Shown piece by piece: positions 2,006 through 62,680 of a DNA stretch of 64,000 nt. This DNA is from Diphasiastrum complanatum (Eukaryota; Streptophyta; Lycopodiopsida; Lycopodiales; Lycopodiaceae). Below the pieces are notes generated by a model that saw only the letters and a list, made by a program, of their open reading frames with translations, searched no databases and was not told the DNA's origin. A program made the position numbers and the translations under genes. Numbering within the stretch: position 1 is the stretch's first letter; every line of letters begins with the position of its first letter. The stretch is from assembly GCA_029204225.1 (NCBI GenBank), contig CM055112.1, forward strand, positions 21,518,578-21,582,577, written 5' to 3'.

Positions 2006-7119
<5,114 letters not shown>

Positions 7120-7184
<65 letters not shown>
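7120..7184. repeat. (GA)n microsatellite
   Basis: Perfect GA tract between the 5' end of LINE A and the 3' end of LINE N. Confidence 0.97.
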
Positions 7185-12200: not shown

Positions 12201-14335
12201 AGATCCTCACTGTAAGAAAGTGGAACAGGAGGTGAGTCATGGCCATGCCGAGTCTCAAAAGGAGAGCTCTTCTACCTTGGTTCGCACTTATCTTAAGTAT
12301 TCCATAGAAGATGGAATAGTGATGAGAAATGGCAAGGCTCTTATTCCAGCTTGTGAGGTGCTGCGAAAGAGGATCTTGCATATCTGTCACGATAGCCCTA
12401 GTGCTGGTCATCCTGGTGTGGATAGGACCTATGAGTTGGTACGACGTAACTTTTGGTGGTCGAGACTTAAGAAAGAAGTAAACCATTATGTGACACATTG
12501 TTTTAAGTGTCAAGTTAATAAGGCTGAAAGGATTAAAGTGCCTGGATTATTACGCCCGTTACCTATACCAGAAGGGAGATGGGAGAGTATTTCCATGGAC
12601 TTTATTACATGTTTACCGCGTACGCAGCAGCAACATAATGCTATCCTAGTTGTGGTTGACAGACTCATGAAAATGGCTCGTTTTATCCCAACTAGTAATA
12701 AGATTGATGCACCTGGTACGGCTGATTTGTTTATACAGCATGTATTCAGACTTCATGGATTACCTAGATCCATTGTGTCTGACAGGGATTCTCGTTTTAC
12801 TGGCAATTTCTGGACTGCAGTATTTGAGAAGTTAGAGGTGCAGTTGGGAATGAGTAGTTCTGATCATCCTGAAACAGATGGGCAGACTGAGAGAGTTAAC
12901 CAAACCTTGGAAGACATGCTTAGGGCGTATGTGAGTGAAAGGCAAACGCAATGGGAACGTTACCTACCATTGTTGGAGTTTGCCTATAATGATAAAAAGA
13001 ATGCATCTACGAAGATGAGTCCTTTCGAGCTAAATTATGGTTTTAGACCAGCTAGTCCAGTTACTATAGGTATGCCTCATAAGACACCTAGTGCTATGGA
13101 ATTTCTAACTCACATGCAACAGATGTTGGAGTTAGCTAAGGAAAATGTAAAAGCGGCGATGGATCGGGCAAAGACATATGCTGATCTGGATCGTACGCCA
13201 AGAGAGTTCGAGGAAGGAGATATGGTATTTCTCAGGATTCCAAAGGACTCGAAAACCCTAAAGACAGGGAAGTGGTATAAGTTGTCACCTAGATATTGTG
13301 GACCTTGGAAAATTGTTAAAAAGATTAATAGCGTTGCTTATGAATTGGATTTGCTTGGTGGTTGTAAGGTTCATCCTGTTTTTCATGTTTCACGCTTAAA
13401 GAAGGTTTTACATGATGGTGATAACTTGTTGGCTGATGGCCTTGTATTGTTTCAGGAGCATGGGGAGGTGATGCATGGACTAGCGAGAGTATTGGACCGG
13501 AGGCATAGACTGTTGCGGAATTGTTTGCTCCGTGAGTACTTGGTTGCATGGCATGGACGACCTCTCAGTGATGCTACTTGGGAGACCGCGCATGGGTTGC
13601 ATGCACAGTATCCAGACTTTGCCATCGAGGATGATGTCATCTGAGGAGGGAAGGGATGTCACATGTACTTTGAATCCCCTTGCCCAATGTATGGTAAATT
13701 ATAATTATTAAATTGTAAATGGCTAAGTCACCGGCCTGTGGAGACAATTGTAAATTGCAATGTAAATATTTGTTATAGTGACTAAATACGAGATGGCCAA
13801 GGAAGTACTGGGTCTCATGAGAGTCTGCTGGACTGACCTCCTAAAAAGTAGGAAGGGTTGACTGGTCAACGTGACATGTGTCACATGCTCACTGGGACAC
13901 TTGGTCCAGTGCATGAGTGACACTTGTCAGATGGTCAATGGACGGGTCAACAGGACATGTGTCATATGCTCATTGGGACACTTGGTCCAATGCATGAGTG
14001 ACACGTGTCAGACTGTCCACCTACTAGCTTGCCTATGTGTCAGGGTACTGCCAAGTGGCAAGTGTCGGCTGTGCATGGAGTTTGCCATGTGTCGACGTTA
14101 GGATGTGTCAGGGTTAAGGGGTGCTTGAGGGGATATAGGGTGAGCCTTGTCAGGCATTCCTCATTATGATGATGATTATGGTATTCCTATGCAGCTATGG
14201 TTGGGAGGAGACTTGCAGCAAAGCTCTCATGTTTGCTTGTTGATCTATGTACATTCGCTTGAAATTAATAAAGTGACGGATTTGCTGGGTAATTCTGTGT
14301 ATTTACTTAGGGTTTGTGAGCTTGTGTGCAACATC
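9251..14335 (+). mobile_element. Ty3/gypsy chromovirus fossil, 5' end missing
   Basis: Parts in order: gag (from about 9,300), zinc-knuckle-like motif (about 10,110-10,150), protease with DTGS (about 10,410), reverse transcriptase (about 10,970-11,500), RNase H (about 11,780-12,060), integrase zinc-binding and core regions (about 12,380-12,930), chromodomain (about 13,480-13,640), a purine tract, then a 3' LTR-like region starting TGTCACATG at about 13,656, with an AATAAA near 14,265. No matching 5' LTR is present. It is broken, with roughly three interruptions besides the lost 5' end, yet the integrase region is long and clear, so it is not very old. Confidence 0.88.
13866..14025. repeat. 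Tandem duplication of about 80 bp in an LTR-like region
   Basis: Two adjacent copies of a block containing GACATGTGTCA..GCTCA.TGGGACACTTGGTCCA, about 85-90% alike by eye, rich in short GTGACA/TGTCAC inverted words. They lie in the U3-like part of the chromovirus 3' LTR, where duplicated enhancer-like blocks are common. Confidence 0.75.
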
Positions 14336-14339
14336 TCTC

Positions 14340-17235
14340 CATTGTCCCTTCGTCTCCTCGTCCTCCGACATGCTTTTGTCCGACGTTACAGGTCTGCAGA
14401 GTTCGTTAATCTTCAGCAGAAGCGTCTTTGCTTTCGTTGTAAGAGTCCTGACTATTTTGCCCGTGGTTGCCGTCAGCCTCTCCCTACTACTACTGCTGCA
14501 TTTTACCATGAGGGCACTACTCCAGATGATTCTGATATCTACATTCATATTTCTGATGAGCCTGACCTATCCTCTGAGCCTTCCATTGATTTACTTCCTG
14601 CTACTTGCCATGCTCAGCTTGCCTATGCTACTTGGACAGGGTGTCCTAGTCCTCGTTCCATTCGGTTACGTGTACGTATTACAGGTCGTGAGTATATTGC
14701 TTTAGTTGATACTGGCAGCACTCATTCTTTTATTAGCAGTTATATCACTAGTCGGATCCGTGCTTCACCTGTTCCTGCTTCACAGCCTCTCACAGTTGAG
14801 GTTGCCAGTTCCCATTCTTTTCCTAGTTCTCAGATGTTTCAGCGTTTACCATACCGCATTGGAGATTTTTTTGGACAGGCAGATCTTTACATTATTCCTA
14901 TGGAGCGTTATGATCTTATCCTTGGTGCTGATTGGTTTGCATCTCTTGGAGCCGTTACACTGGACTTGACACAGCAGACATTGACATTTGTACATGATGA
15001 TGCAGTTACCCACACTTGTTGGCATTGATTCTCAGGGAGACTTCCAGTTGATTACTGGGAAGCAGTTTATTCGCAGCCTGCCGAAAGCTCATTGTGCAGC
15101 CTTATTATGTGTTCAGCGGGCAGTTCCTCCAGTTCCTCCAGTTTCTACTCCAGCAGCTGTTCCTCAGGCGATCTCTGACTTATTACATCCGTATGCTTTT
15201 GTCTTTTCAGAACCTACGACGCTACCACCATTACGTCACGTGAACCATCATATTGACTTGCGTCCTGGTTCTGCTCCTCCTTCCCGTCCCCCTTATCGTA
15301 TGTTTCGATCTGAGCGTGATGAGCTTGAGCTCCATATTACTGCCTTGTTAGATCAGGGTCTCATTGTTCCTAGTCACAGCCCTTTTGGTGCCCCTGTTCT
15401 CCTTGTTAGTAAGAAAGATGGTACCAGACATCTTTGTATTGATTACCGTGCTTTAAATAAGTTGACTATTCGTAATCAGTACCCTATTTTACACATGGAT
15501 GACCTCTTTGACCAGCTTGGTACCTCTAAAATCTTTTCCAAGATAGACCTTTGTTCTGGATATTACCAAATCAGGATGCACCCTTCTGACGAACATAAGA
15601 CCGCTTTTCGTACTCATCTTGGTTTATATGAATTACGTGTTCTTTCTTTTGGTGTTACTAATGGCCCTCCTACGTTCCAGAATGTGATGAATAACGTCAT
15701 GCGTCCGCTTCTTGGTCATTGTGTCTTGGTTTATTTTGATGATATTCTTATTTTTAACCAGTCTCTTGCTGAGCACGTTTCCTATCTTTCCTTTGTATTT
15801 CAGTTACTTGTACATCACCAGTTATTTGCTAAGTTGTCTAAATGTTCTTTTGCTGTTGCCGAGATGGAGTTTCTTGGTTTTCTTGTTTGTAATGGCCACA
15901 TTCGTCTGGATCCTCATAAGGTTCAGGCCATCCAGGATTGGCCTATACCAACTGATATTCATCATGTTCGTATGTTTCTTGGGTTAGCCACTCACCTTCG
16001 TCGTCCAGTTCCTCATTTTGCCACTATTGCAGCTCCTCTTCATGCACTTTTGAAGAAGTCTAGTACTTTTCTTTGGACTTCTGATTGTCAGCCCGTGTTT
16101 GATACTCTTCGTCGTGCTGTTGTTGATGCTGCCGTTACGTGTTTATCGTTGTTTGATCAGAAGTTTCTTGTTGAGACTGATGCTAGTAATGTTGGTTTGG
16201 GTGCTTTACTTCGCCAGTCACAATGCATTATTGCTTATGAGTCGTGTCGTCTTCGCTCTTATGAGCAACGTTATTCTGTGCATGAGAAAGAACTTCTTGC
16301 TATTATCTATGCTCTTAAGAAGTGGCGTCATTATCTTTATCGAGTTCCATTTGACATTATTACTGATCACCAGTCTTTACGTTATCTGTTTTCTCAACGT
16401 GACCTTCGTGATCGTCAATTTCGTTGGTTGCAGTTTTACAGTCTTTTAATTTTTCCATATTGTATCGTCCTGGTCGTGCTAACACTGCTGCTGATGCATT
16501 ATCTCGTCTTCCAGCTTTGTTGAATACACTCGTTTCTACTATTCCTACATGGTTTGATGATCTACCTGCAGCATACCTTACATGTTTTGATTTTCGTGAT
16601 GTTTATAATTCTGCCCCACCTGTTTCGTCCCGTCCTCATCAGGTTTACTCCATTGTTGACAACCGTCTTTATCGTTATGATTCTCTTTGTATACCTAGTT
16701 CCTTGGTATCCATTCCCAATTGTTGTCGGATGCTCATTCCTCTGCTGTTGGGGGTCACTTTGGTTTTCAGAAGTCTTATGCTCGTCTCAAAGACCATTCT
16801 ATTGGCCCTCTTTTCGATCTGAGCTTGCTGTACTTATTCGTACCTGCCCTTTCTGTCTTCGTAATAAGTACTCCCGTGCTAAGTCTGCTGGTTTGCTCCA
16901 AAGTTGGCCTATTCCTCATCGCCAGTGGACTGATATATCTATGGACTTTATCCTTGGCCTTCCCCATACCCAGCGTGGTCACGATTCATGTATGGTGGTA
17001 GTTGACAGGTTCTCGAAACAGGCACATTTTATACCAGTTTGCAGTACTATCACAGCAGTGTGCACATTTGTTCCTATCAGAGATTTTCCGCCTGCATGGA
17101 TTTCCTCGTTGTTGTACGTTCGCATCCTCCGTTGGCTATGGCTCCATCTAGCATGACTATGGCGGTCTCCCAACTAGTCTACACTATGGCTTCTCCAACT
17201 AGCTTGAGCAAGAGGATGGAAAGAGCACTATGAGC
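14340..17235 (+). mobile_element. Ty3/gypsy fossil, truncated at both ends
   Basis: Parts: gag end with zinc-knuckle-like motif (about 14,435), protease (DTGSTHSF, about 14,710), reverse transcriptase (about 15,240-15,800, YFDD near 15,735), RNase H (about 16,150-16,440), then partial integrase (about 16,720-17,100). It is a different lineage from the left neighbour and related to the element at 43.5-46.35 kb. No LTRs recognised. It is broken, with a few interruptions and loss of both ends. Confidence 0.85.
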
Positions 17236-21386: not shown

Positions 21387-22050
21387 AATGACTCGTATAG
21401 TTGTGCGAGTTATTTCGTACTTAGTCAACTCAAATGGACCACAGAGCAAGAAAATTACTGGGGACTCGTACAAAAAATGACTCGTGGATGGAAACGGACG
21501 ACTCGCACAGGACTCTCTCAGAAGATGACTCGCGCAAAAAAATGACTCATGGACGGAAACGGACGACTCGCACAGAAGATGACTCGCGCAAAAAAATGAC
21601 TCGTGGACGGAAATGGACGACTCGCTCAGGACTTGCACAGAAGATGACTCGCGGACGAGAATAGGACTTGCACAAACCTATACCCGTGGAGCTAGAGCCC
21701 GTGGGAATGATTCGCACAGGAAGTACTCGCACACGACTCGGGGTGAAAAATGACTCGTACGCGGGAACTTACTCTCACACTATGAAAATGACTCGCCCAC
21801 AAGATGACTCGCACAAGAAGCTCAGTACCCGCACAGGCTAAAATGACTCGTACTCGCACACTATGAAAATGACTCGCCCACAAGATGACTCGCACAAGAA
21901 GCTCAGTACCCGCACAGGCTAAAATGACTCGTAAGAAGAGCAGTACCCGCACAGGCTAAAATGACTCGTAAGAATCTCAGTACCTGCACAGGCTAAAATG
22001 ACTCGTACAGGTCAAAAGAAGGTGAGAAAGACCTCGAAATGACTCGTATA
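21387..22050. repeat. Irregular minisatellite built on ATGACTCG
   Basis: About 18 copies of AATGACTCG or AGATGACTCG with variable spacers such as CGCACAAG, TGGACGGAAA and CAGTACCCGCACAGGCTAAA. A longer unit of about 81 bp is duplicated at about 21,772-21,933. No coding potential. Confidence 0.85.
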
Positions 22051-23721: not shown

Positions 23722-26700
23722 CTAGCTACGAGCAAGCCGAAAGTAATGAGTGATGGTAGTAGTGGGTCGTGATGTAGGCTGGTGGGAGGCGTATGAAGAT
23801 CTAGTAGCACTGGATCGAGCCGAAACTCTCTGTGTCTTCGATCTTCGGACGGGGACGTCAAAATCCGCAACCGAAATATCCACTCTGTCTCGCTTCTGGA
23901 AGAACTGAGTAATGTGAGCCTGACTGGAATCCATATCTGAGAGCGTAGGTAGAAGTGAAGCTCGTAAAATATACATCTCTCTCAAAAGAAGACCCACACA
24001 TCTAGCATCTGGATACTCGAGGAAGGAGCTCAACGTGAGGGGAATATCTCGGTATAAACAATGGTATCGTCCTCTAATCTCATAGTATACTGGGCAGCGA
24101 AAGATGAAATGAAACTCATCTTCCACCTCCTGAAGAGAACAAAGCTGACATATCCGCTGCAATCTGGGAGTGTCTGTGTATCTACCTGTCTCGATAGCAA
24201 GCTGATGAGAAGAGACTCGAAGCTGTCCTATACGATATCTCAGACCAAAAGATAGCGTCTGTGTAAGATAAACTGGAAGAATAGGCAAGCCCGAAACGTC
24301 CAGCCGTAAAAGATGTGTGCCATAATAATGTAGCTTGACCCTATCTGGATCAGGATGTGACCATATAGTGCGTATGTAGCTCCGGTAGATCTGCTGTCTG
24401 ATATAAGCATGGGTTCCATTCGGAAGATCAAGTGCGGATAAACCCCAAGTCTGAAGAAGGGCTGAGACACTGCGATACCAAGAGTGCTTGGCTCCCTGAT
24501 CTGCAATGGTACAAGATGAAGTGAGAGCAGCAACAATGTATCTGGAGGTATCTAGATCTGATACCCTGTGAAGAAAGGTGATGATCTGAAACATAGCACC
24601 AACAACTAATGGAGGAGAAGCAAACTCGGCTAGTATGATATCATGTGGTACTGAGGGCTTAGCCCGGATTATCCTACTGAGCATGAGAATCTGGATACGA
24701 GTAAGATCTCTCCATGTATCGCGTGATAAATCAGGGCACCAAGTCTCAGCCGAATATAGCACAACTGGGGAGACAGTAGCAGAAAATAGTAGGCATCTGG
24801 TAGCAGGATCCTGCACATAATAAGTAGAGCAAAATCTCTCCATATGCACAAGAGCGGTATGCCCCTTGCGGAGCCTGGCGGTGGCTGCTGGTCGAAAAGT
24901 GAGTAGCGGACCAGAGAAAAGAACTCCCAAATAGGTGTAGGAGGTCACGATCTCAATCGGTAGCCCGTCATAATAGAAAATCACATCTCTCATATGCTGT
25001 CTGTTGGTGTTAAACACCATAATCTTAGTCTTCTTAAGGTTAACCGTCAATCCCCAACGCTGGCAAAAGTGATGTAAAGCAGAAAGGTGACTCTGTAAAC
25101 CAGCTGCAGAGGATGAGAGGAGAACCACATCATCAGCGTACAAGAGAATGGGGATAATAATGTCTGCTAGGGGACAGCCCTCTCCACCTTCCTCGCGAAT
25201 AATCCGCTCGAGGTCATCTATATATAGTGCAAAAAGAGTGGGTGATAAGGGGCAACCCTGCTTCACCCCAATGGTAGAATGTATCTGTGAGGACCAGCCA
25301 CTACCATCTCTGAAACGTGCCAAGACTCGCTCATATAAAGTAATGATCGCAGCAATAGTATCCTCTGAAAAGCCAAGTGAAGACGGTCTCTGGAAAAGAA
25401 GATGTCGTGGAACAGAGTCAAAAGCTTTGCGAAAATCCACAAAGCATCAGTAAATTCTCTGTTTCCGATGTCGAGCCTCCTCAATAATGCATCTCAAAAT
25501 GAAGATCTGGTCTGAAGTAGAATATCCCGGTCTGAAACTAGCTTGACCCATAGCGTGTAAACCCTCAGTTTCAGCAAAAGATCCAGTGACTGTCTGTAGT
25601 ATAGAGCCATATATCTTAGCTAGAGTGTGGCCAATCATAATGGTGCGGTAGTTTCCTACATTCATGGGATCACCTGCCTTGAGGATGGGGTGAAGGATAT
25701 TAGTACACCAAGCCGTAGGAAAACCAGAAGTAACAGCTGTGTTAAAAACATGAGCAATGTAAGGGGAGATGAGATGTGCTACGGGCTTTAGGAAGTCTAC
25801 ACTTAAGGAGTCATAGTCAGTGGCTTTATTTAGTTTGGCATGTTTAATGGCGTTTTCAACCATGTCAGGGGTGAAAAGTGAGCAGTGGTCAAGTCTCGGT
25901 GAGAGTGAGGTAGGAGGAGAGTCCGTGGTATATAACTCCGTGGCATACTCGATCCAGGATTCGATGGCTATGGGGGCCAATGTTGAAGAGTGTCTGGTGA
26001 AATGTTTCCAGAAAAAAGAGGAGGAGGGTGAATCTAAAGAGTTGATCATTTTTTGGCAGAGTGATTGTAGGTAATTGATCTTCTTTGTTCTGGTGGTTCT
26101 ATGATATTCTTTCTGGCATTGTTTGAGTGTGGCAGGGGAGTGTGACCTGGCATATGTCACATGATTGTGAAGAGAGCGGCATTCTGCATCATACCATCTG
26201 TTGTGAACACTTCTGTGAGATGATGTCGTTTTGGTGGGGAAGGATGAGGAAGCAGCAGCTAAGAGGGATGTAGAGAGAAAAGTGGCTTGCTGGTCAATTG
26301 GTGCCATGAACGGGAAGTTAGCGAGTAGTTGGGATAAGATTGTGGTGTAATTAGTGAATCCAGATTGGGTGAAAGGAATACGTTTATGAGTGGGAAGAGA
26401 GCAAGAAATTTGCAAAGAAGAGGTTATGTGACCAAGTGAGATGTGTAAGAGTGAGTGATCGGAAATGGTAGGGGGTGTGATGGAGAAATCAGAAATGTGA
26501 GAGATCAAAGCAGGTGATCCAATGAAGTAGTCGACCACACTATGTCCTCCACCATGAGGATAGCATGTATATGCTGATGAGGAAGGCCACCGTGTGAGGC
26601 CATTCAAAATGGCAAGAGCGTGTGTCTCTGCTAGAGTGATCAACTGCTCCCCGAAAGATGTAGCTGGAGTGTCTGCATCCTGTGATACCCGGTCTAGCCC

Positions 26701-27273
26701 CATATCCAAAGGGTAAAGCCTGAGAAGATCCGTAGCTGCATGAAATTCGGTTTGTCTAGAGCTTGTGCGGGCGTTGAAATCACCTGCTAGTAAAATGGAA
26801 CCCTGCTGAGAAAAGATAGCAATATCATCTGAGAGAGCCTGAAAAGGGTCCCCGCCAAACTCAGCAAACACTGAGGTCTGTGGAGCAAAATAGCATACAG
26901 CTATATAGATGTCCTGAGGTAATCCCAATAGTGAGCCAATAATGTGTAACCAAATATAGCGAGCGTATGGATCTTGTTTAACCATCTGAACTGTGGTGTC
27001 TCTGTATAAACAAGCTACTCCTCCAGATCCTCGACAAGTTTTTCCCCTAACAAATGGACGAAAAGCAGAATGCCAAGAGTACTCCTGTATATTTGGAAGA
27101 GGATGATATAAGGACTCATGAGTTTCAGCCAACAACAAAATGTCGCATTTTCTAATAAAATCAGCAAAGTCTCCGGCTGATGACGAAGATAAAAAACCAT
27201 TACAATTCCAGAAGCCAAGTCTCAAATTGGTAGGGGATCTTGGGTAGCTTCTATATCCGGGGGCCCCTAGTTC
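23722..27273 (-). CDS. LINE C ORF2: endonuclease and reverse transcriptase, one nonsense codon
   Basis: The open frame runs from the ORF1 stop. Domains: APE-type endonuclease (GFWNCNG, LLLAETHES, GDFNARTS, GGGHSVVDY, TISDHS; about 27,200-26,440), linker, reverse transcriptase (DFRKAFDS, GVKQGCPLSP, ILLYADDVV with YADD at 25,129-25,140), then a CX2CX9HX4C knuckle (about 24,090-24,150) and a tail with PIP motifs QAHITQFF (23,899-23,922) and TTTITHYF at the end. One in-frame TGA replaces the second residue of the conserved YCCFVDF motif (TGT in relatives) near 25,441. Otherwise the frame is open for about 1,170 codons. The protein would nick target DNA and prime reverse transcription there. Confidence 0.92.
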
Positions 27274-27276
27274 CTA
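27233..27276 (-). promoter_or_regulatory. ORF1 stop and junction hairpin (LINE C)
   Basis: TAG (27,274-27,276), six bases GAACTA, then a 35-nt element whose outer GGGG/CCCC pairs remain but whose inner stem is weakened compared with LINEs A, D and F. Spacing matches the other copies exactly. ORF2 continues in the ORF1 frame with the linker ELGAPGYRS, and the first in-frame AUG comes only about 80 residues into the endonuclease. Confidence 0.65.
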
Positions 27277-28182
27277 TTGTGGAAGGTCGAAAAATCTCGG
27301 TTTCCCGTCAATAAAAACAACCCTTTGCCCTTTCTCTTTCGCTTCAAGGATAATCTTTTTTCTTGCCAACCATTGAGTATTTGTTAAGTCATCATCCATA
27401 TAAATGAAAGTACCTTTAAGCTTTGCCCTAAGCCGAAGGGTAGCATTGCGTTGTGAAAGCGAGCGGAACTTGATAAACAAAACATTGTCATCAAATTTAC
27501 TGCGCCAAGCAGTATCAAAACCGTCAGCCACATGAGATAACTTGGAAATGAGCAAATCCGTAGCTTCTTCCAACGGTTTTCCACCATTGGCAATGCCTCT
27601 TACTCTAATGTTAAAGGCTTTTTTGGCCCTTCTGGCTTGTTCACCCAAAACTGTCTCCAAATCGTTTTCCTTCGGAAAAGATGAAATCTGAGAGTGATTA
27701 CCTTGCTTAAGGATCGATGTCGTTTCTTCAACCTGTTTTGCGAGTGATGAGAGTTTGCTGCCCATATCATCCGGTTTGAAGAGTGCTGCCCACGTTTTCG
27801 TCTCCTCGACTTGTTTCTCCAAGCTATTGATCTTGTTGGAAGTCTCCTCCAAGGCACTTTTTTCTGCAATTCGTTGCTTAAGATATATATTTTCTTGCTC
27901 AAGCTGCTCCACACGTTCCGTGACACCAAAAAGATCCTTAGCTAACTTGCTATTTTCAGCTTCAAAGAGGTGTAGTTGTTTCTTAAGTCCAAGAATTTCT
28001 TGCCGGATAAAACTAAGATCATAAGCAAAAAGACTTTCGGTAGGTTTGGAAGGAGTGTAGTCAATGGCAGCCATGTTGATAGTTTCTGTCACCGAAGACG
28101 GCTCCTCCATCACTACCGGTGATGGGGGGGTGTCCAACAGGGAGGGGGGTGTAAGAACACCCTCCTTTTTCTTAGGTGCCAT
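27274..28182 (-). CDS. LINE C ORF1 protein (nucleic-acid chaperone-like)
   Basis: Intact frame of 302 residues starting at ATG. After a low-complexity N-terminus comes the motif YTPSK (about residues 42-46), then a long Leu/Glu/Lys coiled coil (about 55-160), an RRM-like part beginning FNIRVRGI (about 195) and a C-terminal part with YMDDDLT and RVVFIDGKPRFFD. The coiled coil, RRM-like and C-terminal order is that of L1-type (Transposase_22) ORF1 proteins, which trimerise and coat the element RNA. No Cys-His knuckle is seen in ORF1. The stop TAG sits in the context CAA-TAG-GAA-CTA, and the frame beyond it is open into ORF2. Confidence 0.88.
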   Translation of the reverse strand: MAPKKKEGVLTPPSLLDTPPSPVVMEEPSSVTETINMAAIDYTPSKPTESLFAYDLSFIRQEILGLKKQLHLFEAENSKLAKDLFGVTERVEQLEQENIYLKQRIAEKSALEETSNKINSLEKQVEETKTWAALFKPDDMGSKLSSLAKQVEETTSILKQGNHSQISSFPKENDLETVLGEQARRAKKAFNIRVRGIANGGKPLEEATDLLISKLSHVADGFDTAWRSKFDDNVLFIKFRSLSQRNATLRLRAKLKGTFIYMDDDLTNTQWLARKKIILEAKEKGQRVVFIDGKPRFFDLPQ

Positions 28183-28365
28183 AGGAGGCGGTAAGCAGAT
28201 GGAGGACCAGCGCAGGGCAGCGTAGGGCAGGTGCGAAGGTCAGCACTGCAGCGCCAGCAGGGCGGACAGCAGCGCCAGCAGGGCGGGTGGGCGCACAAGA
28301 GAGAGAGAGGGCAGCAGCGCTAGCAGGTCGGGCAGCGCACCAGCAGGCGGGCAGCGCACCAGCAG

Positions 28366-28368
<3 letters not shown>

Positions 28369-28428
<60 letters not shown>
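28369..28428. repeat. (GA)n microsatellite
   Basis: Perfect GA tract joining the 5' end of LINE C to the 3' end of LINE D. Confidence 0.97.
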
Positions 28429-28627: not shown

Positions 28628-31600
28628 TCATGAGTGAGATATGACGCTATCATCTAGTCCTGTCCTGCTGGTGCTGATGATATAGAAGGATGTAATACGG
28701 CCTGTGGCATGAGGGGCCACTGGTGGTCTCTGACGTCGTCTGAGAGGATGAAGAGGTCTCCTCGTGATAGGTCGATTAGCTCGTGCTGCAACATGGGTAT
28801 GTGTGGGACGCTGTCTCTGGTCTCTGTGGGCAAGTAGGTCATCATCATCATCGTCACCGTCATCAAAACGTCCTCTCCTCCTGGAGAAGAAAGAAGTGAT
28901 ATGAGGCTGAGAAACCTGACTCGGCCGGGCTGTCTGATACAAATCTTGTCGTAGTATAAACATCTCTCGTATCATGAGTGCCGCGCATCGGGAATCCTCA
29001 TAAGCTATGAGTGATCGTAAGGTGACAGGTGTGTCTCGGAACAAACAGTGGTATCTCCCTCTGATCTCGTAATATACCGGGCACCTAAAGATAAAGTGCT
29101 CCTCTGACTCCACCTCCTCTAAAGAGCATAACTGGCAAATCCGCTCCTCTCTCGGGGTACCCTGGAATCTACCAGTCTCAATAGCCAACTAATGTGATGA
29201 TACACGGAGCTGTCCCAATGTAAATCTGAGGCAATGTGATAGTCTCGAGTCCAAATAATGCGGTAAGACCGGGAACCCTGCTATGTCAAGCTCAATAAAA
29301 TGAGTCCAGTAGTAGCCGGGTTTCACCCCAAGCTGTCGCCCCCAAGTACGGTCGAGATATGCCCGATATAAGATGCGCCTGATATACTGATGAGTACCTG
29401 AGGGGAGCTCTGTAATGGAGATACCAAATGACTCAAGGAGGAAATGGGATGCTTGAGAGAACCACGATAGTCGATAGCCCTGGTCATGAAGAAAGTGTGA
29501 GGAGACAAGTGCTGTCTGTGTATATCTCATATCCTCATCGGGCAGAGCCTGGATTCTCTGAATGTATGTGATAAGCTGGAACGCGGCATATATCTGAATG
29601 GGTGGAACGACAAACTCTGCAAGAAGGATCTCATGTGGAACCGAGGGCTTCGCCTGAATCATACGGGCCAACATGGTGGTCTGCAATCGTGAAATGCTGG
29701 CCCAATGTGATGAAGGGAGGCCGGTGCACCATGTCTCTGCTGCATATAAGGCTGTGGGGGTGACAATAGTATCAAAGAGTCTACACTTACTGCGAACATC
29801 TCGGATGAGCTTCCTGAAACAGAACCGCTCAAGCTGAACAAGAGAGGAATGCCCCTTCCCAAGTCGGGTGGTGGCAGCTTGCCGCATGCTGAAGGTAGGA
29901 CCAGAGAAGAGTATCCCCAAATAGGTATAAGAGGAAACTACCTCTAAGGCCTGTCCATCTACGATGAGCTCCTGGCGCTGCATGAAGGCTCTGCCTCTGC
30001 AAACCCTCTCTGGTCGGGGATACTAGTACTACATCATCCGCATAAAGGAGAATAGCAATCAAAATGGTGCCAAGTCTACAGCCACCCCCGCCACACTGTG
30101 AGATGACTCGCTCTAACTCATCAATATACAATCCAAAGAGAACCGGTGAAAGAGAGCACCCCTGTTTCACCCCAATGGTGCTCCAAATGTGATCAGATAA
30201 GCCACTGCTATGTCGAAAACATCCCAAGACCTTCTCATAAAGAGCCATCACTTGCTAAAACAATATCTGTGGAGAAACCAAGGTCACGAAGTCTCTGAAT
30301 GAGCAGGGAGCGTGGTACAGAATCGAAGGCCTTCCTGAAATCTACAAAACAGCAGTAAACCCTCTCTTTCCTGTACTTAGCTTCCTCGATCAAGGCTCGA
30401 AGTGTAAAAATATGGTCAGTGGTAGAATAATGAGATCGGAAACCTGCCTGCCCCAATGCATGTAATCTCTGAGCTTCCGCCTCTGAACTCACTGCAGACT
30501 GGAGTATGGTACCATAGAGCTTCGTGAGAACATGTCCGATCATGATGGTGCGATAATTACCAGGAATCATGGGATCACCATTTTTATGAATAGGGTGGAT
30601 GATGTTGGTGCACCAGGATGAGGGGCCAGAGGCAACGGCGGAATTGAGGAGAGTGGGTAGTGTGGGAGCAAGGAGGTCGGAAGCATGGGTTAGGAGTTCA
30701 GATTCAAGGTCTTCGATATCTCTTGCTTTATGGGACTTCATTCTCTTGATGGCCGTAAGTACCATGTTAGATGTGAAGAAGGTGAACTCAGAGGGGCGTG
30801 GGGAGATAGAGATGGGTGCGTCAGTGGGTATGGTATATAGTTTGGTAGCGTATTCGGTCCATATGCGAAGGTCATCCAGGAGGGGTGGTGGAGCACGAGG
30901 GATAAACTCACGCCAAAAGGCGCCTAAAGAGGAACTGAAGAGAAGATCAACAAGACGCGTTCCTTCGGAGTTATCATATATACGCTTTTTTCGGCGGAGT
31001 GTGCGACGGTAAGAGCGCCTGGCGGAGTGGAGGAGATGAGGATCGTGAGTGCGGGCATGGGTGACAAGCTGACGAAGAGAGCGACATTCAGCATCATACC
31101 ACGGGGGGTGTGGGGGTCGTATCGATGAGGAGCGGGTGCCTCTGCTTTTATGGGGTTTAGATGGAAAAGCAAGGGAAGCAGCGGTATGAAGAGAAGTGCT
31201 AAGAAAGGCAGCTTGAGTCTCGACTGTACTATCGCGAGGGAAGGAATGGAGCAATGAGGTTAGGAACTCCTGGTAAACTGGTGTAAAGAGAGAAATGAAT
31301 GTATACTTGGGTGCCCGTGTAAGCAGGGGGTGTGAGGATGGCTGGGGAGGTGGGAGGCGGCCGATAGCGAAGGAGAGAAAGGAATGATCAGAGAGAGTGG
31401 TGGGAGATACATGAAAATCAGATATGAGAGGTATGGAAGATGGTAATCCCATGAGATAATCCACAACACTATGTCCACCACTGTGAGGGTGACAAGTATA
31501 ACTGCCAGATTTTGGCCAACAAGTTAGGCCATTGTAAATGGCTAACTCATGGGCCTCTCCAAACTGCGATAAATGCTCACCGTAAGGGGTAGTAGGTCCC

Positions 31601-32223
31601 AAGCTGTGCTCTGAAATCCTGGTAACTCCCATATCATCGCTGTCAAGGGCATGAACGCGGAGCTGGTCGGTGATGTCATAGAACTCTGACTGTCCTGAAG
31701 AGGTTCGGGCATTAAAATCTCCAGTGAGGAGAATATGCCCCCGCTCTGCAAATCTGATAATATCAGGCGATAAATCAAGGTAGGGTGTACCTGTGCCCTC
31801 AGGAAAGGACGAAGACTCTGGAGGAAAATAACAGGCCGCCACAAAGAGGTCCCTGTCCAACCCAATATCCTGCCTAGTAATATGAATCCATATATACCGT
31901 GCATGCTCGTCGTGTCTGATGAACTCAATGCTCGGATGAAGAGACTCTCTGTATAAACATGCAACACCTCCGGATCCACGACCTCTAGCTGATCTAGTCT
32001 CAAGTCTGTACACGGAATCCCATCTGTATCCTGGAAAAATAGGTAATCCTCTCTCTTGACTCTCATGAGTCTCCATAAAGAGCAGCAAATCCCTGTCAGT
32101 GATGAAATCGATCAAGTCGCCAGCAATGGAGGATGAGTGTAAACCATCACAGTTCCATACTCCAATCCGGAGATGGTGTGGGTGGGGCCCCGGGGCACTC
32201 CCAAACCCCGGGACCCCAAATCC
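28628..32223 (-). pseudogene. LINE D ORF2, broken
   Basis: Endonuclease and the N-terminal half of the RT are open to about 30,240 (GVWNCDG, METHES, GDFNARTS, GGHSVVDY, TLSDHS, DFRKAFDS). A one-base insertion near 30,250 shifts frame. About 108 bp are missing near 29,995 compared with LINE N, just after YADD (30,033-30,044), and a TAG replaces the Gln of SSHQLAIETG at about 29,190. The tail is informative: knuckle CX2CX9HX4C, then QPHITSFF (28,886-28,909), a run of Asp, a basic Arg/Pro stretch and GRITSFY near the end. Confidence 0.9.
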
Positions 32224-32226
32224 CTA
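32184..32226 (-). promoter_or_regulatory. ORF1 stop and near-perfect junction hairpin (LINE D)
   Basis: TAG, six bases GGATTT, then GGGGTCCCGGGG pairing with CCCCGGGGCCCC (12 pairs with one G-T wobble) around a 10-nt loop, 32,184-32,217. The frame beyond the stop is open: GFGVPGFGSAPGPHPHHLRI leads into GVWNCDG of the endonuclease, in the ORF1 frame and without an AUG. Confidence 0.82.
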
Positions 32227-33194
32227 GCACTGGGAGCTGCTAGGTGCACTATCAAGAAAACGCACTCGTCCATCTCGGTAAATGACTCGTCTGCCAGACT
32301 CACGGGCTGCCTGAAAGGCCTTACGCCTCTCCTCTACCTGGATATATGTGAGGTCGTCGTCCATGTAGATAGTGGTACCACGTAGCTTAGCTCTGCACCG
32401 CAAAGCATCTCGACGGCTCTCGAGGGAGGTGAAACAAAGAATGAGTGTGGCTGCATCTCTAGTGGTCCTCCATGCGGTGTCTAACCCCTCTGTCCTGTGC
32501 CTGAGAGTGATGTCGAGAAAGCGTTTAGCTTCAGCCAATGCATCCTGTGTATCTAGAACTCCACGAACTCTAATATTGTGGGATTTTTGGTCTCGAGATT
32601 TCTCTTCCGAGATGGTGGCTGAGCTGAGGAGATGGGAGCGCTGGGTTTGGTGCCCTTTTTCAAAACTGATGCCCAGGAAAGGGCCTCTTCGTGTTGCTTC
32701 TCAATCTTGGTTTCTAGCTCCCATAGCATGTTGGTGGTGGATTCCGAAGCTGCGGCCTGTTTGATTCCGATGGATTGTTCGAGTGAGGCAACCTTGGACT
32801 GCAATAGCTTCTTCTCGTTGACCAAAGAAGTAACCGTTCCTTTCAGCTGTGAAATTTCATACCGCAAAAATTGGAAATCTGCCTTGAATTGATCAATCTG
32901 CCAAGATGAAAAAAGTTCATTTGATTTAGAAGGCGTATACGGAATATTGGCTGTAGACTGTGGTGCCGTGAAGGAGGAAGAGTGAGCAATGATTGGTGTG
33001 GGAAGAATAGGGTCAGAAGACAGAAGAGGAGCTGAATCAGGGGAGCAGCCATCAGAGAGGGGGGTGAGAGTTGTAGTAGGAGAGGGAGATGGGTCATCAA
33101 GGGGGTGAGGTGAAGTGGCAGCGAGGGGGGGGGCTGGAATGACAATGGGGTGAGGTGAGAGATCAGCGAGGGGGTGAGGTGAGGGGGGTGACAA
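32224..33194 (-). pseudogene. LINE D ORF1, one frameshift
   Basis: The N-terminus is a Pro/Ser/His-rich low-complexity stretch, then IPYTPSKSNELF with the family YTPSK motif, a coiled coil, and after a frameshift near 32,545 the RRM-like and C-terminal parts (IYMDDDLTYIQVEERRKAF, RRVIYRDGRVRFLDS). It ends with TAG at 32,224-32,226. The same fold and role are expected as for ORF1 of LINE C. Confidence 0.85.
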
Positions 33195-36620: not shown

Positions 36621-36641
36621 GAGAGAGAGAGAGAGAGAGAA
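36621..36641. repeat. Short (GA)n tract
   Basis: Between truncated LINE E and the 3' end of LINE F; continues into an ATTAGAATCAGAAATAGAATT tail. Confidence 0.9.
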
Positions 36642-36888: not shown

Positions 36889-39800
36889 CTAAGTGGATAT
36901 AAAAAACTGCGTGATACGGTGAGAAGCAGGTGTTGGCCTCCGGTGAAGAGCCCTGGGCCTGGAGGAGCGAAGAGGATGCTGGAGCTTCGGTCGTCGTACT
37001 GGAATGTCTAACTCACTGTCATAAGTCTCATCTCTATTCCTCTTCTGGAAAAAGTGCGTAATGTGGGACTGGCTATGATCCATATTAGAAACATCCAATA
37101 AAAAGGAAGATCTGAGAGTAAACATCTCTCGCAATAATAAACCAACGCATCTTGCATCTGAGAAGGCAATGAAAGAAGCAAGTGTAAGTGGAGTATCTCT
37201 GTATAAGCAACGGTATCTGCCTCTGATCTCATAGTAGGCTGGGCATCGGAAAATAAAATGGAACTCATCCTCAATCTCCTGTAAAGAGCAGCATTGACAA
37301 ATCCGTAGCGGTCGAGGTATGTTTGTGTATCTGCCTGTCTCAATAGCAAGCTGGTGAGAAGAGACCCTAAAGTGACCAAGACGGTAACGCAGGCCGAAGG
37401 ATAACGTCTGAGACAAATAACCCGGTCGAATGGGAAGCTCGGAAACATCCAGCTGAAGAAGATGAGTGTGATAAAATTTAAGCTTGACTCGTGCTGGATC
37501 TGGGTGAGACCACACTGTGCTGATGTAAGCTCTGTAAATCTGCTGGCGGATATATGCATGTGTCCCGTTCGGGAGATTAGATATAGATAAACCACCCCAC
37601 CTACTCAAAAGGTCAGAAACACATTGAAACCATGAGGACTTAGCCTGCTGACTAGCTAGAGTGTGAGAGGATGTGAAAGCTATAGCAACATATCTGGATG
37701 AATGAAGCTCCGAGACTCTATGAATGAATGTGATAATCCGAAATATAGCCATTAGTGGTGGTGAGGCAAACTCTGCCAGTATGATATCATGGGGAACTGA
37801 CTGCTTCGCACGGATCATCCGGCTAAGCATAAGGATCTGCAAACGTGAAATATCACTCCAGGTATCTCTGGACAAGCCAGGACACCATGTCTCTGCTGAA
37901 TATAGAGCCACCGGAGAGACAGTGGCAGAAAAAAGGCGACCGCGTGTATCAGGATCATGTACATAGTCAATAGAGGAAAACCTCTCCATCTGGACAAGAG
38001 CAGAGTGCCCGTTGCGGAGCCTAGACAGTGCAGCTGGTCTAAAAGTGAGCAATGGACCAGTAAAAAGGACACCTAAGTAAGTATAAGAGGCTACTATCTC
38101 CAGTGGAAGCCCATCATAGTAGAACACTGTGTCTCTCATATGCTGTCAATTGGTGTTGAACACCATGACCTTAGTCTTACCAATGTTCACCATCAAACCC
38201 CATGTTTGACAGAAAGTATATAAAGCATCAAGGTGCTGCTGAAGCCCAGATGCGGATCTCGATAGAAGTATCATGTCATCCGCATACAGTAGAATAGGGA
38301 TAATCGTATCTGCTAACGGACAGCCATCTCCACCCTCCTCCCTAATAATCCGCTCAAGATCATCAATATATAGAGCAAAGAGAGTAGGGGACAAAGGACA
38401 TCCCTGCTTAACTCCCACTGTACTATGAATGTAAGAGGACCATCCATCACCATCTCGAAAACAGGCCAACACTCTCTCATACAATGTGATGATAGCAACA
38501 ATGATCTCCTGAGAAAAGCCAAGCGATGCTAAGCGCTGGAGTAAAAGGTGTCTCGGAACAGAATCAAAGGCTTTGCGGAAATCCACAAAGCAACAATAAA
38601 CCCTCTGCTTCCTGAACTTAGCCTCCTCAATAATGCATCTCAAGATAAATATCTGGTCAGCCGTGGAGTAGCCAACGCGAAAACCTGCCTGTCCCATAGC
38701 ATGTAACCCTTCTATCTCTGCTCGTGAGCTGACAATAGAGTGTAAAACGGATCCATATAGCTTGGCCATAGTATGACTGATCATAATAGTGCGGTAGTTG
38801 TTGACAATCAAAGGATCCCCGGCTTTGAGGATAGGGTGTAAAAGGTTGGTGCACCACGATGTGGGGAGACCGAAGATGACAGATTGGTTAAAGATATGGG
38901 AAATGTATGGGGCAATAATGTGAGCAACTGGCTTTAGGAAGTCCATACTTAGGAGGTCAACATCAGTGGCTTTTTGGGTTGGACCAATTTGGATGGCGTT
39001 TTCAACCATGGACGGGGTAAAGAGGGTGAATTCTGAAGGGCGTGGGGAAAGAGAAATGGAAAGAGAGTCAACTGTATAAAGTTTAGTAGCATAATTTATC
39101 CATGATTCAATAGCATTAGGAGCGGGTTTATAAGGGTTTTTAGAGAACATCCGCCAAAAGAAATGGGAGGATGGGGAGGCAATAGCATCAACAAGTTTTT
39201 GTCCCAAGGACTGGAGATAAGTTGTCTTTTTTTTCAGAGTCACTTTGTGATATTCTCTTTGTTTCAAGACTAGGGTGTGAGGAGAGTGGTATCTAGCGTA
39301 TACAACTTGTTTATGCAATGAGAAGCACTCTGTATCATACCATTTGTTGTGAGTGCGTTTATGTGAAGGAAAGGTTTTCGAAGGATAGGTAGTATTGGCA
39401 GATTGCAAAAGAGACTGAGATAAAAAGATAGCTTGTTGGTCAACTGAGGAGGTGAAGGGGAAGTCTTGGAGAAAAGTAACTAGGGACTCGGTGTAAAGGG
39501 GGAAACCAGATGGAGAGAAAACCGGGCGATGGTGATGAGTGGGACGGTGTGTTGTGACTGTGGTACTATGATGACCAAGGGATAGAAGTAGGAGGGAGTG
39601 ATCCGAAATGGTAGGAGGTATAATGCGGAAGGTATGAAGAAATGGGATCAAAGCCGGTGACCCAATGAAGTAGTCAACAACACTATGTCCTCCTCCATGT
39701 GGGTGACAAGTAAAATGATATGACGAAGGCCAGTAAGGAAGGCCATTCAAAATGGTTAAGGAATGGGCCTCTGCTAAACCAATCAGCCGCTCTCCAAAGT

Positions 39801-40425
39801 GGGTAGCTGGAGTATCTGCATCCTGTGAGGTCCTATCAAAGCCCATATCTAATGTGTGAACCTGTAGAAAATCACTCTCTGCATAAAACTCAGCTTGCCT
39901 GATGCTCGTACGAGCATTAAAATCCCCTGCTAAAAGAATAAGGCCTCGCTTTGCAAAGCTGAACATATCATCTGAGAGAGCCTGGAAAGGGTCACCACCA
40001 AAATCTGCAAAAGATGATGTCTGTGGTGCAAAGTAACAAACTGCAAGAAAGAGGTCCTGAGAAAGCCCCAAACAGTGACCAGAGAACTGAAACCAAATAA
40101 AGCGTGCAAATGGATCACTTTTGACCAGTTTAAAATGAGAACTGAAAACATCCTTGGTGAGACAAGCAACACCACTAGAACCACGGAAGGTCTTCCCTCT
40201 CACAAAGGGCCGATGCGCTGAGTGCCAGGTGCAACCCTGGATGGATGGGAGCGGTCTATATAAGGATTCATGAGTCTCTGCTAACAAAAGGATATCACAT
40301 TTCAGCATGAAAGAATGGAAGTCACCTACTGAAGAAGATGATAGTATGCCATTACAATTCCAAAAACCAATATGTAAAGGCTGAGGGGATCTCGGGCTGC
40401 TCCTTTGCCCGAGAGCCCCAAATCT
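36889..40425 (-). pseudogene. LINE F ORF2, one nonsense codon
   Basis: Endonuclease (FWNCNG, LLLAETHES, GDFNARTS, GGGHSVVDYF, TISDHSLL), reverse transcriptase (CCFVDFRKAFDSVP, VKQGCPLSP, ILLYADDMI with YADD at 38,275-38,286), Cys-His knuckle (RICQCCSLQEIEDEFHFIFRC) and the tail motifs QSHITHFF and HRITQFF. A TGA replaces an Arg codon in FNTNRQHMRD at about 38,143, with the same frame on both sides. Confidence 0.92.

Positions 40426-41845: not shown

Positions 41846-41893
<48 letters not shown>
41846..41893. repeat. (GA)n microsatellite
   Basis: GA tract between the 5' end of LINE F and the 3' end of LINE G. Confidence 0.96.
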
Positions 41894-60819: not shown

Positions 60820-61860
60820 GAAAGAAAGCTTTATTACTTCTTTTGGGCACCCGTGGGTGCATAAGACCAAAAATAAAATATGTACAAGCAACAGTGGGAG
60901 CATCATCCATAGGAGGACGTGGCTGTAAAATGCTATAAACTAGTAGAACAAAGTAGAAGTGAAATAGGCCCACAACCCGGGCTAGGTATAACAGAAGAAC
61001 TATAGGAAAAGTACCAATGCCCACAACCCGGGCCAGGTGGAGAATAAGTACATATCAGCGAAAGTAAGTGTGAAGTGTCTGCTGAGTGGAGCGTACAGTG
61101 GGCCCTGATGGAGGCAAGTGGCGACTACATCTGGGCTTTTTTTGCGGTGGCACAAGGATTGGAATCTCATCATTGAAGTCATCAGCATTTGCTCGAGTCC
61201 GAAAGAAGCCAGTGAGAAGCAGCTGCTGGGAGTCTAACCCCAGGTGATCTGGTACAGGCAGATGAGACTGACGGAGAGTAAGCATCTCACGAACAAGAAG
61301 TCCCAAGCAACGAGGATCAGGATAGGAGACAAAAATGCGAAGTGTATGCGGGCCATTGCGAAAGAGACAATAATACCTCCCCCGTATCTTATAATACAAT
61401 GGACATCTGAGGAGGAAATGGGCTTCATCTTCCACCTCCTGCAACGAGGACAAGCGACATAGATGACGCTCCAGGGGGATATCCCATGCACGACCGGCCT
61501 CAATAGCAAGCTGATGAGAGGACTCCAATCCGAAGGTGGTGTGGATGGGGCCCTGGGGTGATCCCAACCCCGGGCACCCCAAACCCCTAGCACTAGGAGC
61601 TGCTAGGAGCACTATCAAGAAAGCGCACTCGTCCATCTCGATAAATGACTCGTCTGCCAAACTCAAGGGCTGTTTGATAGGCCATACGCCTCTCCTCTAC
61701 CTGGATATATGTGAGGTCGTCATCGATATAGATAGTGGTACTCGCTGCGGTAGGGGAGATAGCAACAGGGGGCGGCACACCAGCAGCGAGGGGGAGGGGA
61801 GGTGACATCGGGGGTGGGTGCTGGAACCATCCGTGTGTGAAACAACTAGCATCTAGTAGC
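60816..61860 (-). mobile_element. LINE K, large internal deletion
   Basis: 3' hairpin near 60,838-60,867 and a C-terminus ending QQTLHTYFR with QLLLTGFFRTRA upstream; knuckle near 61,440. Near 61,525 the SSHQLAIEAG region is joined to the start of ORF2, so endonuclease and RT are gone. Then come the ORF1/ORF2 junction (61,547-61,589) and the end of ORF1 (DDDLTYIQVEERR, RRVIYRDGRVRFLDS), then a Pro-rich leader. Confidence 0.82.
61547..61589 (-). promoter_or_regulatory. ORF1 stop and junction hairpin (LINE K)
   Basis: TAG (61,587-61,589), six bases GGGTTT, then a GGGGTGCCCGGGG arm and a CCCCAGGGCCCC arm pairing with small defects, 61,547-61,580. An extra TAG lies two codons upstream. The frame beyond reads GFGVPGVGITPGPHPHHLRI, as in LINE D. 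Confidence 0.7.
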
Positions 61861-62637: not shown

Positions 62638-62680
62638 GGGTCTTTGGGCTACTTGCACCCCTGAAAGACCCAAAATGCTA
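62638..62680 (-). promoter_or_regulatory. ORF1 stop and junction hairpin (LINE H)
   Basis: TAG (62,678-62,680), six bases CATTTT, then GGGTCTTT pairing perfectly with AAAGACCC as outer stem, with GGG/CCC possible inside, 62,638-62,671. The sequence is unlike the other copies but the position, span and pairing are the same. The frame beyond reads HFGSFRGASSPKTHPFSL, then GVWNC. Confidence 0.72.

Follow-up and report, generated by a model that had tools for sequence, protein, structure and literature searches.

Programmed readthrough of the UAG codon that ends ORF1 probably produces a minority ORF1-ORF2 fusion protein in an L1-type LINE of the lycopod Diphasiastrum complanatum, judging from the features of the junction between its two open reading frames. 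The original prediction for this region, a LINE whose ORF2 is reached by reading through a single stop codon, is the best reading of the data, with new support from a covarying RNA hairpin located 6 nt behind the stop codon and from a UAG-G context in most of the junctions. The hairpin is a feature that was absent from that prediction. It has long been asked how LINEs obtain ORF2p from an mRNA with two genes, and reinitiation is the usual answer.

Identity of the elements

The window, i.e. the whole stretch of 64,000 nt that was analyzed, contains many copies of one LINE superfamily on its minus strand, of which six (A, C, D, F, J, and K) retain the junction between ORF1 and ORF2 (Table 1). 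ORF2 of copy F matches the Pfam families PF03372 (Exo_endo_phos) and PF00078 (RVT_1), both above cut-off, and the best PDB relatives of ORF2 include human LINE-1 ORF2p and R2. For ORF1, a Pfam profile search returned no family at cut-off. The ORF1 of copy C, modelled with five relatives, shows a long coiled coil followed by RRM-like and C-terminal domains (mean pLDDT 68.7, pTM 0.41), and the four top PDB matches of this model with Foldseek are human LINE-1 ORF1p (E 1e-5 to 3e-4; TM-score by target 0.43-0.45, rmsd 10-12). Because ORF1 has a predicted ORF1p-like fold and ORF2 an APE-type endonuclease and a reverse transcriptase (RT), we class the element as an L1-type LINE. ORF2 identity between families is 48-49%. 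All six junction-bearing copies are disabled elsewhere, e.g. by a TGA within ORF2 of C and F or by frameshifts in D.

Outside this genome, a scan of genome_contigs retrieved three relatives (L001-L003), while none was confirmed in the IMG/VR scans and none was found among plasmids. L001 (CAKZGI010000406.1) and L002 (CAKZGI010000187.1) show 42-43% RT identity and lie on contigs titled as uncultured Trichormus MAG, Trichormus being a fern-symbiont genus; they are probably host-plant DNA in a cyanobacterial bin, and no ORF1/ORF2 junction was recognized in either of them.

Table 1 Features of the junction-bearing LINE copies in the window.
Copy	Feature	Positions	Strand	Remarks
A	In-frame stop TAG	6016..6018	-	
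A	Hairpin	5976..6009	-	Folding scans, recoding test
C	ORF1 (321 codons between stops) with a predicted coiled coil and predicted RRM-like and C-terminal domains	27277..28239	-	
C	In-frame stop TAG	27274..27276	-	
C	Hairpin position	27233..27267	-	Stem degenerate here; not above controls
C	First part of ORF2 (endonuclease)	25450..27273	-	TGA at 25447-25449 interrupts ORF2
D	3' part of ORF1, frame common with ORF2	32227..32640	-	ORF1 farther upstream in another frame (frameshift)
D	In-frame stop TAG, context TGC-TAG-GGA	32224..32226	-	
D	6-nt spacer GGATTT, stop to hairpin	32218..32223	-	
D	RNA hairpin, 34 nt; candidate readthrough stimulator	32184..32217	-	Top 40-nt fold of the 4.1 kb scanned
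D	ORF2, 662 codons open from the stop: linker, endonuclease (W-N = codon 23), start of RT	30238..32223	-	No AUG before codon 50
F	In-frame stop TAA	40426..40428	-	
F	Hairpin	40385..40419	-	Stem sequence differs
F	ORF2, 759 codons open, endonuclease and RT	38149..40425	-	
J (61.6 kb)	In-frame stop TAG	61587..61589	-	Copy deleted shortly after linker
J (61.6 kb)	Hairpin region	61547..61580	-	Partly degenerate
K (62.7 kb)	In-frame stop TAG, context ACA-TAG-CAT	62678..62680	-	
K (62.7 kb)	Hairpin	62638..62671	-	Third stem sequence

ORF1 and ORF2 share one frame across a single stop codon

Translation of the six window junctions gave, in every case, ORF1, a single stop codon, and ORF2 in one frame, as had been predicted. 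The frame behind the stop codon is open up to the W-N motif of the endonuclease in A, C, D, F, and K, and up to a deletion inside the endonuclease in J; the stop codon is TAG in five copies and TAA in F. For A, C, D, and F, the linker peptides given earlier agree exactly with the translations. In the earlier list of copies (A, C, D, F, H, and K), the identity of H is uncertain, since a copy at 54.67 kb is truncated at its 5' end and has no linker; we therefore equate the sixth listed copy with either the 61.6-kb or the 62.7-kb one.

Additional junctions were obtained from the flanks (20 stretches of 10 kb, ~200 kb adjoining the window) and from the host genome (1.745 Gb). Both junctions found in the flanks (L022 and L023) are in the same frame; the flanks also contain ORF1 ends without ORF2 after them (L021, and another at 9.4-9.7 kb of L022) and an ORF2 piece without a junction (L012). 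The genome search with the endonuclease of D gave 13,615 first-look candidates, of which 150 were scored, and 40 junction regions of the D family were fetched from these 150 best matches. This genome-wide sample is one of the D family. Among the 40 fetched loci, 35 retain the end of ORF1, with TAG at that place in all 35 and a common frame in 34; the query began at ORF2 codon 1, so the downstream frame was selected for, whereas the stop codon and the upstream ORF1 frame were not. The sole out-of-frame copy, L056, has an 8-nt deletion within the hairpin that breaks the frame, perhaps resulting from polymerase slippage on the stem. The sharing of frames thus goes beyond chance, as originally argued, and ORF2 was found in another frame in no copy except this one.

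All of the 43 compiled junctions carry a stop codon (41 TAG and 2 TAA, in F and L023), although they are not independent, because 35 of them are fetched copies of one young family. The base after the stop codon is G in 41 of the 43 (K has TAG-C), and the six nt after it are GGATTT in 31. The TAG is not a product of decay, given that the frames over the endonuclease of L035 and L043 stay open for 1227 and 1226 codons, respectively. A plant-virus leaky context, suggested from copy C, was absent: CAR-YYA follows the stop codon in 0/43 junctions, and type I (TMV-like) readthrough was ruled out on this ground.

The first in-frame methionine after the stop codon is at codon 50 in A, 97 in C, 50 in D, 40 in F, and 88 in K, where an in-frame stop at codon 72 precedes it. 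The W-N motif is at codons 22-23, i.e. ahead of the first methionine in each of these copies, in agreement with the claim that no in-frame AUG precedes it. The distance from the stop codon to W-N varies among families by whole codons (W is codon 22 or 23).

A stable RNA hairpin lies behind the stop codon

In each family, an RNA hairpin of ~11 bp (an inverted repeat of ~34 nt) is found 6 nt 3' of the stop codon. In four of the six window copies, namely A (4,021 nt scanned), D (4,101 nt), F (4,412 nt), and K (701 nt), it exceeds all other 40-nt folds of the scanned stretch in stability, and this best fold begins at +4 or +5 from the first base of the stop codon. For J, the best window of the 341 nt scanned begins at +2, and the junction of C is merely in the top 7%. 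Of the flanking copies, L023 has its best window beginning at +10, and the junction of L022 is in the top 0.65%, with the best window elsewhere. Compared with dinucleotide shuffles of the whole region, the z values were -3.9 for D, -2.1 for A, and -2.0 for F; the regions of C and J (-0.1 and +0.35) were not more stable than their shuffles.

As a control for the coding content, we compared each sequence with 3000 synonymous recodings of its own 15-residue peptide. None of the 3000 was as low as the real sequence for A, D, or F, and K (P 0.003) and J (P 0.016) also surpassed their recodings, making five of six window copies; L023 (0/3000 as low) and L022 (P 0.022) behaved likewise. Copy C was not above its recodings (P 0.65), having kept the stop codon with no good hairpin. 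Since the real sequences surpass synonymous recodings, the stem is no by-product of the peptide.

We do not claim a pseudoknot: short complementarities between the loop and downstream sequence, noted by eye, differ between copies, and with a stem of ~11 bp the crossing loop of a pseudoknot would be very short. A search of positions 32000-32500 against Rfam gave two matches only, both far under their gathering scores.

Paired substitutions in the stem

With the six window copies alone, the count over eight pairs was weak or suggestive, 14 to 190 of 500 shuffles being as high, depending on the measure. We therefore rely on two larger sets, in both of which the tested structures were derived from the same sequences, so that the comparisons lean toward structure. 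The D-family set comprised D and 23 of the 34 in-frame fetched copies (24 sequences, 21 distinct), omitting ten copies with the L032/L035 linker as well as L045, which has a 3-nt insertion. Over its 11-pair stem, 96.1% of the cells are paired and 9/231 are mismatched. Three pairs changed on both sides, in about three events in all: C17-G37 became U-A in L057 (and U-G in L067 and L071), C18-G36 became U-A in L047 and L065, and G19-C35 became A-U in L064. On four of five measures, 1-4 of 500 shuffles were as high, and six slid versions of the stem showed zero double changes; the fifth measure, further pair types, was not above the shuffles in this family (314/500 as high).

The diverse set (n = 12) contained A, D, three covarying copies and one plain copy of the D family, L022, L023, F, K, C, and J. 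Over nine pairs, 92.6% of the cells are paired, with 8/108 mismatched. Changes on both sides occurred in five of the six inner pairs, compared with 1-2 pairs when the stem was slid, and 0/500 shuffles were as high on four of five measures, counts that lean toward structure because 3 of the 12 sequences (L057, L047, and L064) were chosen by eye for their paired changes. The measure of pair types was again not above the shuffles (230/500). Copies L023, F, and K, included merely as junctions, bear further, different stems. On these alignments, a hairpin with compensatory changes is well supported.

Selection on the linker

The original prediction held that the linker is conserved as protein rather than evolving neutrally. 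This view stands to the extent that dN was below dS in all four pairs compared (dN/dS of 0.26/0.51 for A-D, 0.07/0.78 for D-J, 0.46/0.98 for C-F, and 0.26/0.49 for A-J), but the constraint is weaker than in the endonuclease, as the A-D dN of the linker is about half its dS while the next 60 codons of the same pair gave 0.14/1.7. In addition, part of what had been taken for a conserved peptide is the RNA stem, because Gly-GGN and Pro-CCN codons make up much of both arms. The extension is thus in the frame of ORF1, begins with a linker in which dN is below dS, and continues into ORF2 as a long conserved enzyme.

Synonymous change is also reduced at the junction, the A-D dS being 0.51 in the linker and 1.7 in the next 60 codons. 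When synonymous difference was scanned in sliding windows of 13 codons, the junction window, set in advance, was among the lowest 4.6% for A-D, 4.5% for A-F, 7.3% for C-F, 17% for D-F, and 18% for D-C; the best of seven neighbouring windows gave 1.1, 0.2, 4.5, 11, and 18%, respectively. This drop in synonymous change is moderate and comes from small samples; it fits an RNA constraint layered on the protein constraint.

Proposed readthrough and its alternatives

We infer readthrough, its efficiency, and the role of the fusion as a working enzyme from four features read in the sequence, i.e. the common frame, the stop codon, the hairpin, and the selection on its stem. In the proposed mechanism, most ribosomes would halt at the UAG codon and release ORF1p. 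The hairpin, located at the mRNA entrance, would tip the competition from the release factor toward a near-cognate tRNA, and a minority of ribosomes would thereby continue and produce an ORF1-linker-ORF2 fusion carrying endonuclease and RT. The stop codon would then set the ORF1p:ORF2p ratio, as in the case of Gag:Gag-Pol in gammaretroviruses.

The main rival is AUG-independent termination-reinitiation, in which the hairpin would help to keep terminated ribosomes on the mRNA until they resume translation at a non-AUG codon of the linker, so that ORF2p arises as a protein of its own. Such a route has been proposed for mammalian L1, and SART1 couples stop and start with a structure downstream of the site, according to PMC5972666. 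For the present LINE we consider it unlikely. Within 40 nt of the stop codon, no AUG position is common to two of the 7 copies checked; the AUGs that some copies do share, at -47 in A, D, and J and at +76/+79 in A, C, D, and F, lie outside the ORF2 frame; and an AUG overlapping or touching the stop codon, as in SART1-like stop-start coupling, was seen in 0/7 copies, the nearest starting at -11 in K only. Moreover, a downstream restart does not need the linker to be in the ORF1 frame, yet all families seen keep it there, with length changes of whole codons, so reinitiation leaves the shared frame unexplained.

It is still less probable that the hairpin serves another step (RNA binding by ORF1p, pausing of RT, or RNA stability) while ORF2 is translated by internal initiation and the shared frame is ancestral. 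Given their common descent, the families do not provide independent frames, and five fetched copies end near the hairpin (L052-L055 at its 3' base and L062 just past the stop codon), indicating that RT may meet it. However, with flanks common to L052 and L055 and to L053 and L054, these five loci represent about three events, and they come from a search that favoured breaks near the start of the query. Against this explanation are also the position of the hairpin, which begins 6 nt past the stop codon in each family as is typical of readthrough structures, the presence of the stop codon in every junction, and the restriction of linker length changes between families to whole codons. Finally, it is hardly credible that the element has one long ORF in which a sense codon decayed to a stop in dead copies, even though all six window copies are disabled, as the stop is at the same place in 43/43 junctions, including copies with 1226-1227 open codons after it, is shared by families with ORF2 as divergent as noted above, and is replaced by a sense codon in 0/35 D-family copies.

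Insertion sites and neighbouring repeats

All 12 AG/GA runs of at least 16 nt lie on the plus strand of the window (2175-2500, 7121-7184, 28369-28428, 36621-36640, 41846-41891, and seven more), and no CT run was found there. Read on their own strand, LINEs A, C, D, and F each pass into (CT)n at the 3' end, and an AG/GA run is located ~130-630 nt beyond ORF1 of A, C, and F, with none near D. Microsatellites of the (CT)n type, entered in one orientation, may be the insertion target of this LINE, as with Kibi and Koshi, which are microsatellite-specific elements. The truncated copies L052-L055 and L062 are all without ORF1 and joined to (CT)n. RT may stall at the hairpin, a clustering of break points being unproven given the search bias.

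The window also contains Ty3-type LTR elements at 10179-16523 (plus strand), with protease, RT, RNase H, and integrase zinc-binding domains and with integrase-core and chromodomain matches under their cut-offs, as well as tandem arrays at 13860-14012 and 21472-22007 with periods of 81, 54, and 37 bp among others.

Comparison with known systems

According to PMC3542737, type III readthrough combines UAG with a G or purine-rich octanucleotide on its 3' side and with an RNA structure that typically begins ~8 nt on. The viral cases described there (gammaretrovirus gag-pol, epsilonretrovirus, and Tombusviridae) resemble the LINE in having UAG with such a 3' context, a nearby 3' structure, and a polymerase as the extension, but here the element is a LINE rather than a virus, the spacer is 6 nt rather than ~8 nt, and the structure is a simple hairpin with no pseudoknot or long-range pairing established. 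TAG and a following G each occur in 41/43 junctions (the exceptions being F, K, and L023), and the 3' structure takes the form of the covarying hairpin 6 nt downstream, degenerate in copy C. Points against this classification are the TAA of F and L023, the TAG-C of K, the spacer of 6 nt rather than 8 nt, and the lack of a good hairpin in C. The Candida element Tca2, a gag-stop-pol arrangement with a predicted pseudoknot, showed no readthrough when assayed, as stated in PMC7175516; by analogy, this outcome is a fair warning for the readthrough reading.

Among LINEs, mammalian LINE-1 has a comparable coiled-coil ORF1, human ORF1p being the best structure match, and an APE-type endonuclease and RT in ORF2, but it differs in its 63-nt inter-ORF spacer and in the unconventional termination-reinitiation proposed for it in PMC5972666; here a single stop codon is followed by an open in-frame linker. 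The silkworm LINE SART1 has a structure downstream of the ORF1 stop codon, which is needed there for ORF2 translation (PMC5972666), but its stop and restart sites overlap as UAAUG, as given in a title cited in that source, whereas the present LINE lacks an AUG at the stop codon. Zorro3 of Candida is likewise an L1-like element with two ORFs, but it has multiple stops between them and requires the first ATG of ORF2 (PMC7175516 and PMC1965478). In the literature searched, which included few subscription papers and no Repbase notes, we found no LINE with readthrough of the ORF1 stop codon.

The third relative, L003 (JAAEPJ010000017.1), has at 382-1461 a LINE ORF1 that contains DVETNPGP, which we take to be a 2A-like peptide, and a same-frame TAG before ORF2. 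Its contig is titled as a bacterial MAG, and we infer that it is a eukaryotic contaminant. As in the LINE studied here, its long open ORF1 and its open ORF2 share one frame across a TAG-GAA, and W-N is reached ahead of any in-frame AUG; the differences are a weak candidate hairpin (P 0.07, 0.007, and 0.08 at the three lengths tried) and the 2A-like peptide in its ORF1 region, possibly giving two recoding devices in one element. Because L003 has the one-frame TAG-G layout without an early AUG, the same-frame layout with one stop codon may be wider than this genome.

Implications

Somewhat more tentatively than readthrough itself, we favour the view that a LINE lineage has a retrovirus-like readthrough switch with its own hairpin, which sets the ratio of ORF1p to ORF1-ORF2 fusion and is either newly evolved or kept from an old ancestor, the latter option being considered because a distant animal-like element has the same layout. 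The junction would form a small, testable reporter cassette, and since the family is large, its natural variants could be used to read which bases matter. If the readthrough reading is true, this compact covarying recoding signal would be a separate LINE solution that converges on that of retroviruses.
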